Source: a bacterium (GTDB taxonomy: Bacteria > Vulcanimicrobiota > Vulcanimicrobiia > Vulcanimicrobiales > Vulcanimicrobiaceae). Taken from it: 61,667 nucleotides of DNA. A program made the position numbers and the translations under genes. The notes beneath the pieces are model-generated. The model was not told where the DNA came from. It was given only the letters and a program-made list of their open reading frames with translations, and did no database searches. The stretch covers positions 1-61,667 of the forward strand of contig JAJYFL010000014.1 in assembly GCA_021790935.1 (NCBI GenBank), written 5' to 3'. Of the stretch, positions 1,640 to 11,037 are shown piece by piece (within the stretch, counting starts at the first letter, position 1; the number at the start of each line of letters is the position of its first letter).

Positions 1640-2215
1640 ATGCGTTTGGTTGATTGGGCGCGGCGTCAAGGCATCTCGTACAAGACGGCTTGGCGCTGGG
1701 TCAAAGATGATGCAATGCCGATTCCCTGGCGTAAAACGCCAAGCGGAATGATTCTTGTCGATGCGGCAATAGACGAAAAGCCGTCTGCCGTCGCGCTCTA
1801 TGCGCGCGTGAGCAGTCACGATCAACGTAGCGACCTTGACCGACAGTTGGCGCGCCTTTCAACCTATGCCGCCGAGCGAGAATTGCACGTCGTCGAAGCA
1901 GTTGCGGAAATCGGTTCTGGGTTGAATGGAAAGCGCCGCAAGTTGCTGCGGCTTCTTTCGGACGCAAACATCGGTGCGGTCGTCGTCGAACACCGCGACC
2001 GTTTTGCCCGATTCGGTTCGGAGTATCTCGAAGCGGCGCTCGCCGCGTCAGGACGCCGGTTAATCGTGGTCGATTCCGCCGAAATGAACGACGATCTCGT
2101 GCCGGACATGATTTCAATCCTCACAAGTTTCTGCGCGCGGCTTTACGGGCGTCGTTCGGCTCGCAATCGCGCCATTAGCATTGAGCGCGCATTAGCGCGG
2201 GTAGCCGCTCCATGA
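1640..2215 (+). CDS. tnpA: IS607-family serine transposase TnpA
   Basis: A 191-residue protein. Residues 1-50 form a MerR-like HTH (LVDWARRQGISYKTAWRWVK), followed by a small serine-recombinase domain starting ALYARVSSHDQRSDLDRQ, where the Ser of VSSHDQ is the expected nucleophile and nearby Arg and Asp residues are conserved. VVVEHRDRFARFGSEYLEAAL is the second signature of IS607 resolvases. The enzyme cuts and rejoins the transposon through a serine-DNA intermediate. Its stop overlaps the tnpB start (ATGA). Length is normal for the family, with no frameshift. Confidence 0.93.
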   Translation: MRLVDWARRQGISYKTAWRWVKDDAMPIPWRKTPSGMILVDAAIDEKPSAVALYARVSSHDQRSDLDRQLARLSTYAAERELHVVEAVAEIGSGLNGKRRKLLRLLSDANIGAVVVEHRDRFARFGSEYLEAALAASGRRLIVVDSAEMNDDLVPDMISILTSFCARLYGRRSARNRAISIERALARVAAP

Positions 2216-3432
2216 TTGTGTCGCACAAGATTCGGCTCGTTCCATCCAGCGCGCAAGAACAGGTATTTCGTCGTGCTTGCGGGACCGCACGCTTCGCCTA
2301 CAATTGGGCGCTCGCGCGATGGCAAACCGACTACCTTGCCGGAGGCAAGCCGAGTGAGGCTGCACTTCGTAAGCAGCTCAATGCGCTGAAGGCAACCGCG
2401 TTTCCGTGGATGTGCGAACTACCAAAGACCGTCGTACAATATGCCATCAAGAATCTTGGGTTGGCGTATAAGAATTTCTTTGACGATCTGGCTAGAGTGA
2501 ACCGAGGCGAGCTTAATGCCAAACAGCTTCGCAGGCCACGCTTTAAGAAAAAAGGCCATCACGATAGCTTCCGCGTCGATAACGGCACGGATAAAGGCCA
2601 TCCGAATGCGGTGACCGTGGTGGGTAAGCTCGTCAAGCTCGCACGCATCGGGTGGGTCTGCATGCGTGAGGAAGTCCGCTTCGCGGGAACAATCCGTTCT
2701 GCGACGATCTCACGTGAGGCTGATGCGTGGTACTGCTCGTTCGCGGTCGATGTTGGTGGGCTTGCGGCCGAAGGAACGGCGAGAGGAATCGTTGGCGTTG
2801 ACCTCGGAATCGCTCACCTCGCAACACTTTCGGATGGTTCGACACCGATTGAATCGCCGAAGCCGCTACGGAGGTTACTCGGCAAACTCAAACGACTCAA
2901 TCGTTCACTCCATCGAAAAGTCAAAGGCTCGTGCAATCGTGCACACGCGAAAACCAAGCTCGCACGACTTCACGCACGAATCGCCCATATCCGCGAAGAC
3001 GCATTGCATAAGCTGACAACGCACCTCATCCAACGCTTCGGCACGGTCGTTATCGAGGACCTCAACGTGCGCGGAATGCTTGCAAATCGAAAACTATCAC
3101 GGGCCATCGCGGACATTGGATTCTTCGAGTTTCGGCGACAGTTGGAGTATAAAGCGAAGATGGCTGGCGCAGCCGTGATCGTTGCTGATCGCTGGTTTCC
3201 ATCTTCGAAACTCTGCTCGACATGCGATGCGAAGAACGAATCACTCGCGCTCTGCGAGCGTGCCTGGACGTGCCTATCGTGCGGCGCGACCCACGACCGC
3301 GATTTCAACGCGGCCGTGAATCTAGCGCGCCTTGTCCCCGAAGGGGGATACCCCGAGAGTTCACCGGGGTTAGTCTGTGGAGCGGACGGCTCTGGCGACG
3401 AGAGCGATCTCGCCGTGAAACCAGCCGCGTAG
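2212..3432 (+). CDS. tnpB: IS607-associated RNA-guided nuclease TnpB
   Basis: A full-length TnpB of 406 residues. The N-terminal part carries RLVPSSAQEQVFRRACGTAR and FAYNWALARW. The RuvC catalytic residues are visible: Asp near 197 in GVDLGIAHLA, Glu near 282 in VVIEDLNVRGM, and Asp near 364 in HDRDFNAAVN. A four-cysteine zinc ribbon (CSTC...CLSC) sits between the last two. TnpB proteins are omega-RNA-guided DNA endonucleases, relatives of Cas12, that help the element persist at the donor site. All key residues are present, so activity is plausible. The start ATG overlaps the tnpA stop. Confidence 0.93.
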   Translation: MIVSHKIRLVPSSAQEQVFRRACGTARFAYNWALARWQTDYLAGGKPSEAALRKQLNALKATAFPWMCELPKTVVQYAIKNLGLAYKNFFDDLARVNRGELNAKQLRRPRFKKKGHHDSFRVDNGTDKGHPNAVTVVGKLVKLARIGWVCMREEVRFAGTIRSATISREADAWYCSFAVDVGGLAAEGTARGIVGVDLGIAHLATLSDGSTPIESPKPLRRLLGKLKRLNRSLHRKVKGSCNRAHAKTKLARLHARIAHIREDALHKLTTHLIQRFGTVVIEDLNVRGMLANRKLSRAIADIGFFEFRRQLEYKAKMAGAAVIVADRWFPSSKLCSTCDAKNESLALCERAWTCLSCGATHDRDFNAAVNLARLVPEGGYPESSPGLVCGADGSGDESDLAVKPAA

Positions 3433-4869: not shown

Positions 4870-5063
4870 AAAAATTCGGTCGGGACCCCAAAGGGAAACC
4901 GAGCCGAGTGCCTAACGAGTGAGGACGCCTCGCAAGCACACCGTGGGCGGTGCTGTGAAGGCCGAGACCCCGCAAGGGAACGACGTCGCCCACACCCGGT
5001 ATGCGGGCAACCGCATACGCGACGGCAGTGAGGGCTCGCCTACGGCGGGCCTTCCTGTTTTTT
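4870..5063 (+). ncRNA. Structured RNA leader, unassigned class (candidate riboswitch/attenuator)
   Basis: A 190-nt gap contains many stable helices: CGGT/ACCG near 4881-4903, GTGAGG/CCTCGC near 4919-4933, TGGGCG/CGCCCA, and a perfect GTATGCGG/CCGCATAC hairpin at 4999-5018. Two similar CCC-loop-GGGAA hairpins (GACCCC..AAGGGAA) appear near 4888 and 4968. The region ends in an intrinsic terminator just before the DUF5693-csaB-ileS operon, so a transcription-attenuation element is likely. It did not match the cobalamin, c-di-AMP, TPP, T-box, RNase P or tmRNA core motifs I compared by eye. Confidence 0.5.
5033..5063 (+). terminator. Intrinsic terminator closing the leader RNA
   Basis: GGCTCGCC (5033-5040), loop TAC and GGCGGGCC (5044-5051) form an 8-bp stem, followed by TTCCTG and six T (5058-5063). 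It stands directly before the first plausible start codons (5070, 5082) of the operon, as in attenuator-type control. Confidence 0.75.
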
Positions 5064-5069
5064 GCGCGA

Positions 5070-7091
5070 ATGCTCGGCCACGTGAAATTCGTTCCGACTA
5101 GAACGCGCTACGCCGCATTCGTGCTTTTGGTTGCCCTGCTGGCTTCGTTGCTCGTCGCGGCGTTTCGCGTTCGCGTCGAAGGGCAGACTCGTCGCGTCGA
5201 GATCGCGATGGACTACAACGACTTCCTGACGCTCGCCCATGCCTACGATTACAACCCCGAGGCGTTTCTGGTCGAGCTGCGGCGGGCGGGTCTCACGTCG
5301 CTAGCACTGGCCGAGGAGCTCGGCAGTGCGGTCGGTACGTCGAAGAGCGCGTACGTCACCTCTGGCGTAGGCTTGTTGGACGCCGCACGCATCTCGCCGC
5401 TCGCCGACCCGACGCTCGCCGCGCTCGTGCGCGGCAACCGGATTCACCCGAATGCGGTCTACCTGCTGGTCTACGACCGATCCACCTTCAAGCGTTTCAT
5501 GCAGCAGTTGCCCCTGCACTTCGAACGCTCGGGGATACGCGTTCTGCACGCGAGCCTTCCCTACGTGATCTCGGTGCGCACGCAGATCGATTACTTCAAT
5601 ACCGTCGCTTTGGGGATTCCGCACCGCGAGATCGCGCTGACGCGCAAGCTCGGCTTATTCGTGATTCCGCGCTTCCAAAACGACGAGCGGCTGCGCCGGC
5701 CGCAGATGGAACAGATGATCCGCGATCTGCACGCCGGCAAGTGGATATCCACCATCATCTTTTTCGGGATGCGCAATCAGGTGCTGGGCTACCCGGATCA
5801 CATCAAGGGCGCGGCCGCCGTCTTCAAGACGCACGCGTTCAATTACGGCGAGATCGAGACGTACGACCCGAGCCAAGTGCAGAAAGGCAACGTCTCGCTC
5901 GCACGGTTGATTCCCGGCCGCATCGTGCGCGTGCAGGCCATCGCGAAACCCGAACTCGACAAGCTCACGATCCCCGAGATCGTCGCGCGCTACGAACTCG
6001 GCGTGCGCGAACGCAATATCCGCGTCGTCTACCTGCGCCCGATCTCCCATCGCTATCGCGGCCTCTCGATCGAGAAATCGAACGTCGAGATGGTCCGCGA
6101 TATCGCGACCGCGCTGAAATCGCAAGGCTTTAAATTAGGCCGCGCGACGCCGATACCGCTCTATCGCGGCAACAACGCGATCCTCGTCGGGCTGGCGGCG
6201 CTGGCGGTTCCCTCTATATTCGTGCTGCTGCTCGACTGGTACGGCTGGTACCGCCGCCGGCTCGCCGCCGCGGCCTACGGGTTGACGCTCCTGCTCTACC
6301 TTGCAGGCGTAGCGACGCATCACGACATCATCGCGCGGTCGCTGATCGCGCTCGCGGGCGCGTTGCTCTTCGCCGCCGCGGCCTTTACGGCCATCGGGCC
6401 CGCATTCTACGAGGAACCGGCGCGCGGCGGCGGCACGCAACTGCTGCGCAGCCTGCGCTGGACGCTTGTGGCAACCGGGGTGGCGATGCTGGGAGCGCTG
6501 GTCGTCATCGGCGTGATGAGCTCGCCGCTCGTCATGGAGGAAGTCGAACCGTTTCGCGGCGTGAAGTTGCTCCTGGCGACGCCGCCGCTCGCTGCGCTCC
6601 TGCTCTACGTCCTAACCGACCGCTTCAACGCGCGGGTGGGCGACGCGAAAGCAGCATTTGCGGCACCCGTCCGCATCTATCAGTTGCTCGTGGGGATCGC
6701 GGTGCTCGCGGCCGGCCTGTTCGTCTTAATGCGTAGCGGCAACCAGAGCGAGATCGCTCCTTCGGCGATCGAACTGTGGCTGCGCGCCCACCTTACCGAA
6801 TGGCTGAGCGTTCGGCCGCGCTTCAAGGAGTTTCTGCTCGGCTTCCCGTTGCTGATGCTGCTGCCGGCGCTGCGCGGAACGCACCGCCGAGCGGTCGGCA
6901 TCTTGTTCGCGCTCGGCATCGGGGTGAGCCTCGGCGACATGATCGATACCTTCTCTCACCTGCACACGCCCGTGCTGGTCGCGGTGCTGCGGATCTTCAA
7001 CGGCCTCGTGCTCGGAGCGATCGTCGGCGCGATAGCGATCTGGATCTATCGCAGTATCGTGCGCCGCTACGCGCCGCCCGCATCGTCCTAG
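5070..7091 (+). CDS. DUF5693 family membrane protein
   Basis: About 673 residues. An N-terminal membrane anchor (YAAFVLLVALLASLLVAAF) precedes a soluble extracytoplasmic domain of about 330 residues, then at least seven C-terminal transmembrane segments (for example ILVGLAALAVPSIFVLLL). The pairing with csaB downstream is the known DUF5693-CsaB arrangement of Firmicutes and cyanobacteria and suggests a role in making or exporting a pyruvylated cell-surface polymer; the molecular function is unknown. The start is uncertain: ATG 5070 or GTG 5082 lie after the terminator, while an in-frame ATG at 5001 falls inside the RNA hairpin. Confidence 0.82.
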   Translation: MLGHVKFVPTRTRYAAFVLLVALLASLLVAAFRVRVEGQTRRVEIAMDYNDFLTLAHAYDYNPEAFLVELRRAGLTSLALAEELGSAVGTSKSAYVTSGVGLLDAARISPLADPTLAALVRGNRIHPNAVYLLVYDRSTFKRFMQQLPLHFERSGIRVLHASLPYVISVRTQIDYFNTVALGIPHREIALTRKLGLFVIPRFQNDERLRRPQMEQMIRDLHAGKWISTIIFFGMRNQVLGYPDHIKGAAAVFKTHAFNYGEIETYDPSQVQKGNVSLARLIPGRIVRVQAIAKPELDKLTIPEIVARYELGVRERNIRVVYLRPISHRYRGLSIEKSNVEMVRDIATALKSQGFKLGRATPIPLYRGNNAILVGLAALAVPSIFVLLLDWYGWYRRRLAAAAYGLTLLLYLAGVATHHDIIARSLIALAGALLFAAAAFTAIGPAFYEEPARGGGTQLLRSLRWTLVATGVAMLGALVVIGVMSSPLVMEEVEPFRGVKLLLATPPLAALLLYVLTDRFNARVGDAKAAFAAPVRIYQLLVGIAVLAAGLFVLMRSGNQSEIAPSAIELWLRAHLTEWLSVRPRFKEFLLGFPLLMLLPALRGTHRRAVGILFALGIGVSLGDMIDTFSHLHTPVLVAVLRIFNGLVLGAIVGAIAIWIYRSIVRRYAPPASS

Positions 7092-7114
7092 GCGCGCCGA
7101 AGGTTTGGCGTGGG

Positions 7115-8218
7115 ATGCGTTTCTTGCTTAGCGGGTACTATGGTTTCGGCAATCTCGGCGACGAAGCGCTCCTCGAAGTGATCGTCTCGCAGCTTCGCAC
7201 GCGCTATCCGTATGCCGAGATCGACGTGCTCTCGGCGCAGCCGCAGGTGACGGCGCACGAGCTGCGCGTCGAGTCGACCCCGCGCATGGATATCGCAGGA
7301 GTGCGCGAAGCGATTTTGCGGGCCGACGTCGTGCTCTCCGGCGGCGGCGGCTTGCTGCAGAACGGTACGAGCCTGCGCAGCTTGTTGTATTACGCGGGGA
7401 TTCTGCGCTCGGCGGTGCGCGCGAAACGCGCCGCGATGATCTTCGCGCAGTCGGTCGGCCCGCTCGATTTTTGGGGGAGGCGAATCGTACGCGAATGGTG
7501 CAAGGGCGTCAACCGGGCGACCGTGCGCGATGGCCGCTCGCGCGAACTGCTCGCGACGCTCCTGCCGGGAACGGCGGTCGTGCAGACGGCCGATCCGGTC
7601 TTTCTCTACGAAGCGCCCGATACGGACGGCGATCTGCATTTCGAAGGCTTGGGGCCGGGCAGCGATCCGCTGGTGGTCGTCAGCGTGCGTAAGATGCCGA
7701 GCGCGCGCGTAGGGGTCGAGATTATCGCGCGAGCCGTCGACCGGCTCGCCGACCGCTACGGAGCGCGCGTCGCGTTCTTGCCGCTCGGCGGTGCGGCCGA
7801 TGCCGAGGTCTCGACGCTCGTCATTCGCAAGTGCAAGAGCGCTCCCGTGCTGCTGCCCGAAGCGCCGCTGGCCAAAGCGGCCGGCATCATTCGCCGAGCG
7901 AAGGCCGTGATCGGCACGCGCTTGCACGCCATCATCTTGGCCGCCCGCTATGCCGTTCCGTTCATCGCAGTGCCCTACGATCCCAAAGTCGCCGCGCTCT
8001 GCGAGGACCTCGCCTATCCGCTCGCCCCCTTGTTCGTGCCGGGCGCTGCCGAGCGCCCGAGCTTCGACGAGACGGATGCCCTCGTCGACCGGCTTTGGTC
8101 GCAGCGCGACGAGCTCTCCGCGCACTTAGCGGCGGCCTCGGCGCGCTTGCGCGAGCTGGCCGCGCGCAACTTCGAGGTACTCGACGAACTCGTAGCCGAA
8201 AGAACGCCGAACCGATGA
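7115..8218 (+). CDS. csaB: Polysaccharide pyruvyl transferase CsaB
   Basis: A 367-residue member of the polysaccharide pyruvyl transferase family. Clear features are the N-terminal GYYGFGNLGDEALLEVIV, the glycine-rich LSGGGGLLQN, FAQSVGPL, and the C-terminal RAKAVIGTRLHAIILAA motif with its conserved His. CsaB adds ketal-linked pyruvate to cell-wall polymers that anchor S-layer proteins. The ATG at 7115 starts the conserved fold; the open frame reaches further upstream but only shadows the DUF5693 gene. It lies 23 bp after DUF5693 and overlaps ileS by 4 bp, so the three form one operon. Confidence 0.92.
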   Translation: MRFLLSGYYGFGNLGDEALLEVIVSQLRTRYPYAEIDVLSAQPQVTAHELRVESTPRMDIAGVREAILRADVVLSGGGGLLQNGTSLRSLLYYAGILRSAVRAKRAAMIFAQSVGPLDFWGRRIVREWCKGVNRATVRDGRSRELLATLLPGTAVVQTADPVFLYEAPDTDGDLHFEGLGPGSDPLVVVSVRKMPSARVGVEIIARAVDRLADRYGARVAFLPLGGAADAEVSTLVIRKCKSAPVLLPEAPLAKAAGIIRRAKAVIGTRLHAIILAARYAVPFIAVPYDPKVAALCEDLAYPLAPLFVPGAAERPSFDETDALVDRLWSQRDELSAHLAAASARLRELAARNFEVLDELVAERTPNR

Positions 8219-11037
8219 ACGACGATCCCGTGCAACGCGACTACCGCGATACGCTGAACCTTCCGAAGACGGCCTTCCCGATGAAGGCCGATCTCGCCCG
8301 GAGCGAGCCCGAGCGCGTCCGCTGGTGGCGGGAGCGCGGCGTCTACGCGCGCAGGCTCGAGCGCAACCGCGGCAACGCCCCGTGGATACTGCACGACGGC
8401 CCGCCCTACGCCAACGGCGATCTGCACATGGGCCATTTCCTCAACATGGTCCTCAAAGACGTCTTCGTGAAGATCGCGCTGCTCGAAGGGCGCTGGGCGG
8501 AGTTCGTGCCGGGCTGGGACATGCACGGTCTGCCCATCGAACTCGAGACGCTCAAGCATCTGAAGGTCAAGGATTTTCACGAGATCGATCCGCTCGAGCT
8601 GCGCGAGAAGTGCAAAGAACGCGCGCTGTACTGGCTCGACCGGCAGCGTGAGACGCGGATGCGCATGGGCACGTTTGGCGAATACGATCGCCCCTATCGC
8701 ACGATCGATCCGGCCTTCGAAGCCACCATCGTCGAAGCGCTCGCGATCCTGGCCGAGAAGAACCAGATCTACAAAGGTTTACGCGCGACCTTGTGGTGCA
8801 TCCACGACGAGACCGCGCTAGCCGAAGCCGAGATCGAGTACCGGGAGAAGACCTCGCCGTCAGTCTACGTCCGCTTCACCGCCACCCCCGCCCAACGCGC
8901 CGCCCTCCTCGGACCGATGCTTCGACAGGCTGCGCATGACACTGTGGCTGCGCGTGACGCGGATGTGCGCGTCTCCGTGCTGATTTGGACGACGACGCCG
9001 TGGACTCTGCCGGGGAACGTCGCGATCGCGCTGCGCGCGGACGCGCAGTACGGCCTCTATCGTTACGGCGACGAGGCGCTGATCGTAGCCGAGGCGCTCG
9101 CACCGCAGGCGCTGGGTACGCGCTTCGCCGAGGCGCGCCGGATCGCGAGCGCGCCCGGCGCGGCGCTCGAGGGTCTCGCGGTGCGCCATCCGTTTCTCGA
9201 TCGCGATTCGAAGATCGTGCTTGCGTCGTACGTCGATCTCGAAACCGGTACGGGGGCCGTGCACACCGCGCCCGGGCACGGCGCCGACGATTTCGAGACC
9301 GGCGCCGCCTACGGTCTGCCCGTGCTTAGCCCCGTCGATTCGCGCGGCGTCTTCACCGCCGATGCCGGCCCGTACGCCGGTCTGCACGTCTGGAAGGCCA
9401 ATCCGAAGATCGTCGAGGATCTGCGCGCGAGCGGCGCGCTCTGGGAGGCGTTCGACTACGCGCACAGCTACCCGCACTGCTGGCGCTGCCACAATCCGGT
9501 GATCTTTCGCGCGACCGCGCAATGGTTCATCGCCATGGATCGCAACCGCTTGCGCGAGCGCGCCATCGAGGCCGCGCGTGCGGTTGCCTACACGCCGGAG
9601 TGGGGCGAGAGCCGGTTGATCGCGATGCTCGAAAACCATCCCGAGTGGTGCATCTCGCGCCAGCGAACGTGGGGAACCCCGATCCCGGCACTGCTATGCA
9701 CCGCATGCCGCGAGCCGGTGCTCGACGCACGCGTCGCACGCGTGGCGGCGCGGCGTTTTCTTGCCGAAGGTGCGGGCACGTGGTGGCGAGATCCGGTGGA
9801 GACGTTTCTTCCGCCGGGGTTCGTCTGCCCGTCGTGCGGCGGAGCGAGCTTCGAGAAAGAGAAGAACATCGTCGACATCTGGTTCGAGTCGGGCGTCACG
9901 CACCTCGCGGTCCTCGCGAAGAACGGGCTGCCGTGGCCTTCCGATCTGGTCCTCGAAGGCGGCGATCAATACCGCGGCTGGTTCCGCAGCTCTCTCGTGA
10001 CGGCGGTCGCCATCGAAGGTGCCGCACCCTACAAGCACGTCGTGAAGAACGGCTGGGTGAACGACGAGCAGGGGCGGCCCATGAGCAAGTCGCTCGGCAC
10101 CGGCATCGACGCGCAGGACGCCATGCAGAAGTGGGGCGCCGACGTCTTGCGCCTGTGGGCCGCGTCGGTCGAGTTCGTAGACGACGTACGCTTCGGCCCG
10201 CACGTCGTGGAGCAGGTGAGCCGCGTCTATCGCAACGTCCGCAACCGCCTGCGCTTCATGCTCGGCAACCTCGACGATCTTCCGGCGGATGCGATCGTCT
10301 CGCGCGACCGGATGGAACCGATCGATGCGCTGGCGTGCGACGTCACCGACGATTTCGTCGCTCGCGTCAAGCGTTGCTACGACGCGTTCGAGATTCACGG
10401 CGCATATCTGCTCGTGGTCGATTTCGAGAGCGCGATGTCGAGCTTCTATCTGGACGCACTCAAGGATCCGCTCTATTCGTGCGCCGCCGCTTCGCCGCGG
10501 CGCCGCAGCGCGCAGTCGGCGATCCTCTACGTGCTGCAACGCTTCCTGACCGCCCTCGCACCGGTGCTCCCGTTTACGGCGGAAGAGGCGTGGCAGGCGT
10601 TGCCCGAGGGTTTGCGCGCCGGCTGCGAGAGCGTTTTCGACGCGATCCTTGCCGGCGGCGATCGGGGACCGGAGAACGCAGCGGAGCGTCTCTCGCTCTG
10701 GCAGCGGGTCAGATCGGAACGGGCGGAGATTGCGGCGTCGCAGGGCAAACGCGACTACGAGCTCGCGGCCGTGCTGAAGGCCGCTCCCGATCTCTACGAG
10801 CGCCTCTCCGCGCTTGGAGACAACCTGCGCGAGGCGCTCGTGGTCTCCGCACTCACGTTGGAGCGCGACGAGACGCTCCCCGAGAATGGAACCACCCGCA
10901 CGCTCTCCGCGGCCGAGGGCGAGAAGTGCCGGCGCTGCTGGAAGTATCTGCCGCTAGGCGGCGATGCGCGGCATCCGGCGATCTGCGAAGCGTGCGCGCG
11001 GATCGTCCGCGAACTCGACGCGCCGACGGCCTCCTAG
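8215..11037 (+). CDS. ileS: Isoleucyl-tRNA synthetase
   Basis: A class I synthetase of 940 residues, the normal size. It charges tRNA-Ile with isoleucine. The HIGH-type motif is HMGH (71-74) after ILHDGPPYANGDL, the KMSKS loop is MSKS (623-626), and the editing domain shows TTTPWTLPGN and TAPGHGADDFETG. A zinc ribbon closes the protein (CRRCWKY near 905, CEAC near 924), as in the bacterial type. ATGA overlap with csaB fixes the start. At residues 235-243 the coding sequence includes a degenerate REP-like repeat within an insertion in the editing domain. Confidence 0.97.
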   Translation: MNDDPVQRDYRDTLNLPKTAFPMKADLARSEPERVRWWRERGVYARRLERNRGNAPWILHDGPPYANGDLHMGHFLNMVLKDVFVKIALLEGRWAEFVPGWDMHGLPIELETLKHLKVKDFHEIDPLELREKCKERALYWLDRQRETRMRMGTFGEYDRPYRTIDPAFEATIVEALAILAEKNQIYKGLRATLWCIHDETALAEAEIEYREKTSPSVYVRFTATPAQRAALLGPMLRQAAHDTVAARDADVRVSVLIWTTTPWTLPGNVAIALRADAQYGLYRYGDEALIVAEALAPQALGTRFAEARRIASAPGAALEGLAVRHPFLDRDSKIVLASYVDLETGTGAVHTAPGHGADDFETGAAYGLPVLSPVDSRGVFTADAGPYAGLHVWKANPKIVEDLRASGALWEAFDYAHSYPHCWRCHNPVIFRATAQWFIAMDRNRLRERAIEAARAVAYTPEWGESRLIAMLENHPEWCISRQRTWGTPIPALLCTACREPVLDARVARVAARRFLAEGAGTWWRDPVETFLPPGFVCPSCGGASFEKEKNIVDIWFESGVTHLAVLAKNGLPWPSDLVLEGGDQYRGWFRSSLVTAVAIEGAAPYKHVVKNGWVNDEQGRPMSKSLGTGIDAQDAMQKWGADVLRLWAASVEFVDDVRFGPHVVEQVSRVYRNVRNRLRFMLGNLDDLPADAIVSRDRMEPIDALACDVTDDFVARVKRCYDAFEIHGAYLLVVDFESAMSSFYLDALKDPLYSCAAASPRRRSAQSAILYVLQRFLTALAPVLPFTAEEAWQALPEGLRAGCESVFDAILAGGDRGPENAAERLSLWQRVRSERAEIAASQGKRDYELAAVLKAAPDLYERLSALGDNLREALVVSALTLERDETLPENGTTRTLSAAEGEKCRRCWKYLPLGGDARHPAICEACARIVRELDAPTAS
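8919..8942 (-). repeat. REP-like repeat inside ileS (degenerate)
   Basis: The plus strand reads CTTCGACAGGCTGCGCATGA here, close to the inverse of the element at 41430 and 49427 (CATCCTGAGCCTGTCGAAG). It is read in frame as part of ileS between YVRFTATPAQ and VSVLIWTTTPWT. Confidence 0.5.

Follow-up and report, generated by a model that had tools for sequence, protein, structure and literature searches.

A structured RNA family with an invariant nine-nucleotide bulge in uncultured Eremiobacterota, placed mostly before the DUF5693-csaB-ileS operon

Introduction

In the 61,667-nucleotide stretch of bacterial DNA analysed here (the window), an enoyl-CoA hydratase-like gene (ECH) is followed by a gap and then by the operon DUF5693-csaB-ileS. 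The initial annotation placed an unassigned structured RNA in this gap and gave it the layout of a riboswitch or other attenuator. We asked what the element is: a leader that controls the operon in cis, or a small RNA in its own right that happens to stand before an operon in most genomes. With the answer, a phylum for which our literature search, with most subscription journals not covered, found no report of regulatory RNAs gains a well-supported family of structured RNA. The main copy is placed so that it can restrict transcription of an operon to which the isoleucyl-tRNA synthetase gene belongs, and a second, circularly permuted RNA points to an exact 9-nt module that offers a handle on its binding partner.

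Results

Extent and parts of the element

The region 4870-5063 folds at -102.3 kcal/mol, compared with -86.1 +/- 4.65 kcal/mol for shuffled sequences (z -3.5). In a DNA search of relatives, the whole 206 nt were matched in a single genome of the same genus (G001), the remaining relatives matched the last ~85 nt only, and homologues outside the genus retain only ~4927-5063. The claim of a structured element is thus upheld by its fold, but the conserved element, as delimited by these comparisons, is 4927-5063 and not all of 4870-5063 (Table 1). Two CCC...GGGAA hairpins, initially taken as hints of a two-fold internal repeat, are present at 4887-4897 and 4969-4981. Like the ~60 nt upstream of the conserved element, they recur in one same-genus genome only (L009/L146), so the repeat is not conserved and does not belong to the conserved element. 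The perfect 8-bp hairpin, here P3, and the intrinsic terminator before the start codon were both described correctly. Across copies, the gap from P2 to the terminator is 0-2 nt in nearly all cases, and the terminator hairpin has a mean energy of -30 kcal/mol (79 copies). Copies of genus g36 (e.g. L131, L128) carry a longer hairpin insert with CCCGACAAAAAGGG in place of the P3 tetraloop, which indicates that the GNRA loop is not essential.

Table 1 Features of the element and its surroundings in the window
Feature	Position	Strand	Remarks
ECH, enoyl-CoA hydratase-like, 261 aa	4084..4869	+	from the ORF list; name is a reading of the sequence
Genus-specific leader stretch with first CCC...GGGAA hairpin	4870..4926	+	outside the conserved element; matched by G001 only (L146)
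P1 hairpin	4927..4962	+	GCCU/CGCA/GCAC pairs with GUGC/UGUG/AGGC in the fold; sequence varies between genera
GUGGGC in P1 loop	4943..4948	+	complementary to GCCCAC 4988-4993
Linker with second CCC...GGGAA hairpin, this genus only	4963..4983	+	
P2 helix	4984..5024	+	CGUCGC 4984-4989 pairs with GCGACG 5019-5024
9-nt bulge CCACACCCG between P2 and P3	4990..4998	+	same in 79 of 80 copies
P3 hairpin, perfect 8 bp	4999..5018	+	4999-5006 with 5011-5018; GCAA loop 5007-5010
Intrinsic terminator	5026..5063	+	hairpin 5026-5057, six-U run 5058-5063; one nt behind P2
DUF5693 (PF18949)	5082..7091	+	GTG start 18 nt behind the U-run; Pfam E 5.1e-123
csaB-like polysaccharide pyruvyl transferase	7088..8218	+	PF04230, E 5.6e-36
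ileS, isoleucyl-tRNA synthetase	8209..11037	+	from the ORF list; approximate start MNDDPVQRDY; name is a reading of the sequence

Covariation and sequence conservation

We scored the proposed helices in an unfitted MAFFT alignment of 28 sequences (A1) and in a model-fitted alignment of 76 distinct sequences (A2). In A1, 97.6% of cells are paired and 12 pairs have changed on both sides, with 68 double-change cells against 16 in shuffles; the corresponding values for A2 are 99.2%, 16 pairs, and 212 against 43. Sliding the partners in A2 by 1-3 columns lowers pairing to ~34-51%. The proposed helices therefore carry the compensatory changes of a structured RNA and not of a chance fold. This covariation is carried, strongly, by P3 (99.5% paired, both-side changes in 5 of 8 pairs) and by the terminator (both-side changes in 10 of 14 pairs), both counted over the 76 distinct sequences. 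P2 is paired in 99.6% of cells in the same set and is nearly invariant in sequence, so hardly any covariation support falls to it. P1, too variable for alignment, was judged by its folding energy, which is -14.7 kcal/mol against -11.3 in shuffles (71 distinct loci, Wilcoxon p 6e-13).

Of the 80 copies, 71 have the motif GTGGGC in the 70 nt before the core, usually at a distance of 24-34 nt, compared with 1.8% of background windows. In the RNA it is a partial complement of the bulge, a relationship that the initial annotation had missed, and its match to the invariant GCCCAC makes a pseudoknot or an alternative helix possible. Since both strands are invariant, the putative pairing is read from conservation and not from covariation; if complete, it would cost P2 its two inner pairs. 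Some dispersed copies (L073, L074, L081, L083, L084) have no GUGGGC and may be decaying.

Searches of Rfam 15 found no family at or above its gathering cut-off in the whole window. The element itself gave chance-level matches only at E <= 10, and so did two homologues at E <= 5. Known classes, including riboswitches, the T-box and the c-di-AMP switch, were rejected, as none reached the cut-off. The element is a new structured RNA family without an Rfam match, and the initial description of an unassigned structured RNA before DUF5693-csaB-ileS is borne out both by this search and by the strong covariation of P3 and the terminator among homologues.

Distribution

A covariance model built from A1, whose E-values are rough, found 81 strong copies (E < 1e-8); 80 complete copies were counted for context. 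Among the 99 genomes searched from the host's family, 71 have strong matches, spread over ~22 of the 38 genera covered; genus g24 is an example of family members that lack the element. The sister family has strong matches in one genome, and the rest of the phylum gave weak model matches only. A scan of 84,980 genomes for the core pattern returned mainly records titled Candidatus Eremiobacterota or WPS-2. Some 30 further pattern matches lie outside Eremiobacterota and have low model scores, the top being 33.9 bits in Georgenia; viral contigs yielded no match to the core pattern. Spread to other phyla was rejected on these low scores, and the five matches inspected sit in long open frames. The element was thus seen in one family of uncultured Eremiobacterota and in one sister-family genome, with no convincing match elsewhere. 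Because nearly all genomes come from one family, the sequence counts overstate the number of independent events. The host also carries a rearranged partial copy on contig 31 (7712-7789, L083), with an identical but longer P3 and without the bulge.

The main site

Sixty-one of the 80 copies lie between ECH and DUF5693. An ECH orthologue is found within 400 nt upstream of 66 copies, and DUF5693 follows within 300 nt in 65. Four copies precede DUF5693 with no ECH close by (L132, L115, L072, L114), and five, of which two stand at contig ends, have ECH upstream but lack DUF5693 in the next 300 nt. In the window ECH ends 57 nt before P1, and in relatives ileS orthologues adjoin csaB; neighbour names given without a family scan are readings of the sequence. 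At two loci (L097, L120) an alpha/beta hydrolase gene has become the first of the operon, ahead of DUF5693, and the element stands immediately in front of that gene. At another (L112, genome G030) the main-site copy is kept and a homoserine-acetyltransferase-like gene on the other strand separates it from DUF5693. In five members of the family without the element (L239, L240, L241, L244, L253), ECH abuts DUF5693 and leaves no room for a leader. Upstream of ECH in the window, a small serine-recombinase-like ORF (1640-2215) is directly followed by a TnpB-like ORF (2212-3432), an arrangement that by eye, from the translations, looks like an IS607-type element.

At the main site the terminator ends within ~80 nt of the first gene, with one case at 133 nt. 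No promoter fits the 18-nt gap of the window, so, barring internal promoters, read-through must account for at least some of the transcription downstream. Since read-through is needed there, a cis effect of the terminator at the main site is likely, and its position just before DUF5693 in 65 of 80 copies makes an attenuator plausible at this site.

Dispersed copies and promoter-like sites

Ten of the 80 copies have neither ECH nor DUF5693 as a neighbour. Behind most of them lies an unrelated gene on the opposite strand that runs towards the element, coding for a TonB receptor, a catalase, an alpha/beta hydrolase or proteins of unknown function. A terminator before a co-oriented gene is therefore a property of the main site and not of most dispersed copies. 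An antisense riboswitch over the convergent genes was considered and rejected, as these genes share no function. With its own terminator, and with positions that are not upstream of a regulated gene, the element has the marks of a stand-alone small RNA. One genome (G033, L073) carries two core copies 3.1 kb apart on one contig (2920-3005 and 6037-6122), each ~42 nt behind an ORF for a small, secreted-protein-like product; the two ORFs (219 and 216 aa) are related and have no Pfam match, and neither core copy has GUGGGC.

Taken over all loci, promoter-like sites upstream show a weak enrichment (Wilcoxon p 0.009). Strong-looking ones were seen at L076, L111, L114, L103, L124 and L140, that of L076 lying 25 nt before GUGGGC; no such site precedes L146, the nearly identical copy in the sister species. 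Separately, GTAAAA/TGTAAA is enriched 98-124 nt upstream of the core, at 7-9 of 79 loci compared with 0.2-0.7% of background windows, in several genera (e.g. L089, L092, L102, L147). The inverse, AAAACTTTAC, occurs upstream of the sister-family RNA described below, and the two are possibly sites of a shared factor.

A second RNA with the same bulge

We searched 41 genomes for the complement of the invariant stretch, with ~27 background matches, and found an intergenic hairpin in all four genomes of one genus of the sister family (L298-L301 in G061-G064, at ~1467-1532 of each locus). It reads GAAGCGAUCGUUGU-GCGCAA-UCUC-UUGCGC-CCACACCCG-GCAACGAUCGCUUC and is followed by a U-run. The hairpin is 98-100% identical over 66 nt (mean 99%), with ~31-35% identity downstream and 60-77% in the 80 nt upstream, where a conserved CAGAAT box lies just before the RNA. 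Of its two neighbours, the gene before it is divergent and the one after it convergent, and this RNA therefore looks free-standing. Beyond this genus, the phylum yielded no 66-nt RNA like it.

The bulges of the two RNAs have the same nine letters and the same length, with CGC/GCG pairs before, a G after and nothing opposite. A helix capped by a loop in one RNA corresponds to the open one in the other, which makes the two circularly permuted versions of each other. The shared bulge is a post hoc observation from one search for which no formal probability was computed; in our judgement a chance match is unlikely, since the bulge, its length, the flanking pairs, the intergenic position and the conservation across four genomes agree. 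Two differently built RNAs that keep an invariant bulge in a rigid frame are best read as sharing what is probably a recognition module.

Discussion

A small RNA that may also gate the operon

Our preferred reading is that the element is a small stand-alone RNA built around the bulge CCACACCCG, whose terminator also gates read-through into the operon; we give it a probability of roughly 0.55. The element would be the gene of a structured RNA, ~110-140 nt long, with its 3' end set by its own intrinsic terminator. The bulge module would be its working part, binding a protein, an RNA or a ligand, and GUGGGC may pair with the bulge region, either completing the fold as a pseudoknot or masking the bulge. 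At the main site the terminator would limit read-through into DUF5693-csaB-ileS, so that the RNA is both released and gating, whereas for the dispersed copies and the permuted sister-family RNA the free RNA would be the only working form.

We favour a free RNA because copies lie elsewhere and because the sister-family RNA carries the same bulge. We also count in its favour the covarying helices and intact terminator in 71 of 99 family genomes, the retention of L112 despite its convergent gene, the four copies before DUF5693 without ECH, and the presence of an Hfq gene in the host and most relatives. Against it, most copies are at the main site with the terminator near the first gene, as in an attenuator, promoter-like sites are weak over all loci, and some dispersed copies have no GUGGGC. 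A search for targets yielded none, with a perfect 10-nt complement of the bulge at one other site of the host genome only, beyond the element itself. A more specific proposal, that the bulge between abutting helices is a module recurrent in the order and the recognition site of an undescribed protein or ligand, is tentative and in our view doubtful. If this proposal is true, the RNA would be a global regulator of a group in whose host family 6S RNA is weak or missing.

Alternative explanations

The best-placed alternative, although we regard it as the less probable account, is that the element is a cis-acting attenuator or riboswitch of DUF5693-csaB-ileS. In this view the strength of the terminator would be set by the state of the pseudoknot-capable core, acting as an aptamer or as a protein site, and the dispersed copies would be orphans or controllers of antisense transcripts. 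The main site speaks for it: 65 of 80 copies lie directly before DUF5693, L097 and L120 directly before the hydrolase gene that heads the operon, and the window has no promoter space between terminator and start codon. The P2 strands and the base of P3 are also invariant in sequence and pairing, as in aptamers. Yet the main-site copies represent one vertically inherited position and hence one observation of gene context, while the dispersed copies stand before unrelated, mostly convergent genes, and relatives without the element manage with ECH abutting DUF5693 and no leader. The terminator starts one nt behind P2 and is not overlapped by any conserved sequence; hence no classical antiterminator can be seen. 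The upstream 60 nt pair with the terminator arm slightly better than shuffles (p 6e-4), which speaks for this view, but the signal for an antiterminator is weak. The riboswitch or attenuator of the initial annotation thus keeps its terminator before a co-oriented DUF5693 at the main site, but it is weakened by the ~10 copies elsewhere without a co-oriented gene of shared function, by the G030 copy cut off from DUF5693, by the want of a clear antiterminator and by the bulge in a stand-alone sister-family RNA.

A trans-acting antisense RNA, with CCACACCCGG as the seed that is freed when the GUGGGC pairing opens, is a specific version of the small-RNA view, its probability overlapping that of our preferred reading, and we hold it to be unlikely. 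An invariant single-stranded stretch of 9-10 nt common to two differently built RNAs is what such a seed would offer, and Hfq is present in the host. A seed, however, needs neither an exact bulge length nor invariant flanking helix sequence. Perfect 10-nt complements occur just once more in the host genome, not above a reversed control pattern, and this near-absence speaks against long perfect antisense pairing and leaves short or imperfect seeds unaffected. With that one extra site lying 3' of an ORF and within another hairpin context, an antisense target by perfect complement was rejected. Hfq dependence was rejected too, as three genomes that carry the RNA (G013, G014, G020) have no Hfq match.

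The extra copies, the rearranged partial host copy and the dispersed positions might suggest a terminator joined to a selfish or repetitive sequence without RNA function, of the REP or MITE kind, but the usual single copy per genome, the conserved site, the compensatory changes in P3 and the terminator and a bulge invariant across more than 20 genera make this very improbable.

Comparison with known RNAs

Replacement of 6S RNA (RF00013) was considered because its matches are weak or missing in the host family; no match was found in the window or the host genome. Replacement was rejected, since the element and 6S-like matches coexist in G007, G010, G011, G014 and G063. Within the same class, RF00013 scores strongly in most genomes of family f3 and less so in f2, and in the host family it is weak or absent. 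The element resembles 6S RNA in being a stand-alone structured RNA and differs from it in having no long bulged rod.

In being compact, structured, intergenic and occasionally duplicated, with its own terminator, the element is like Hfq-type and other terminator-ended small RNAs of bacteria. It differs from these in having no Rfam match and no identified target, in its long invariant bulge set in a rigid frame, and in its position inside an operon gap in most genomes.

In pseudoknot riboswitches such as preQ1-I and fluoride the aptamer can be immediately followed by a terminator, and the element shares with them a short, pseudoknot-capable core with a terminator next to it, ahead of genes. Unlike them, it has no Rfam match, its core and terminator do not overlap, some of its copies stand alone, and a downstream function is shared only within one orthologous operon.
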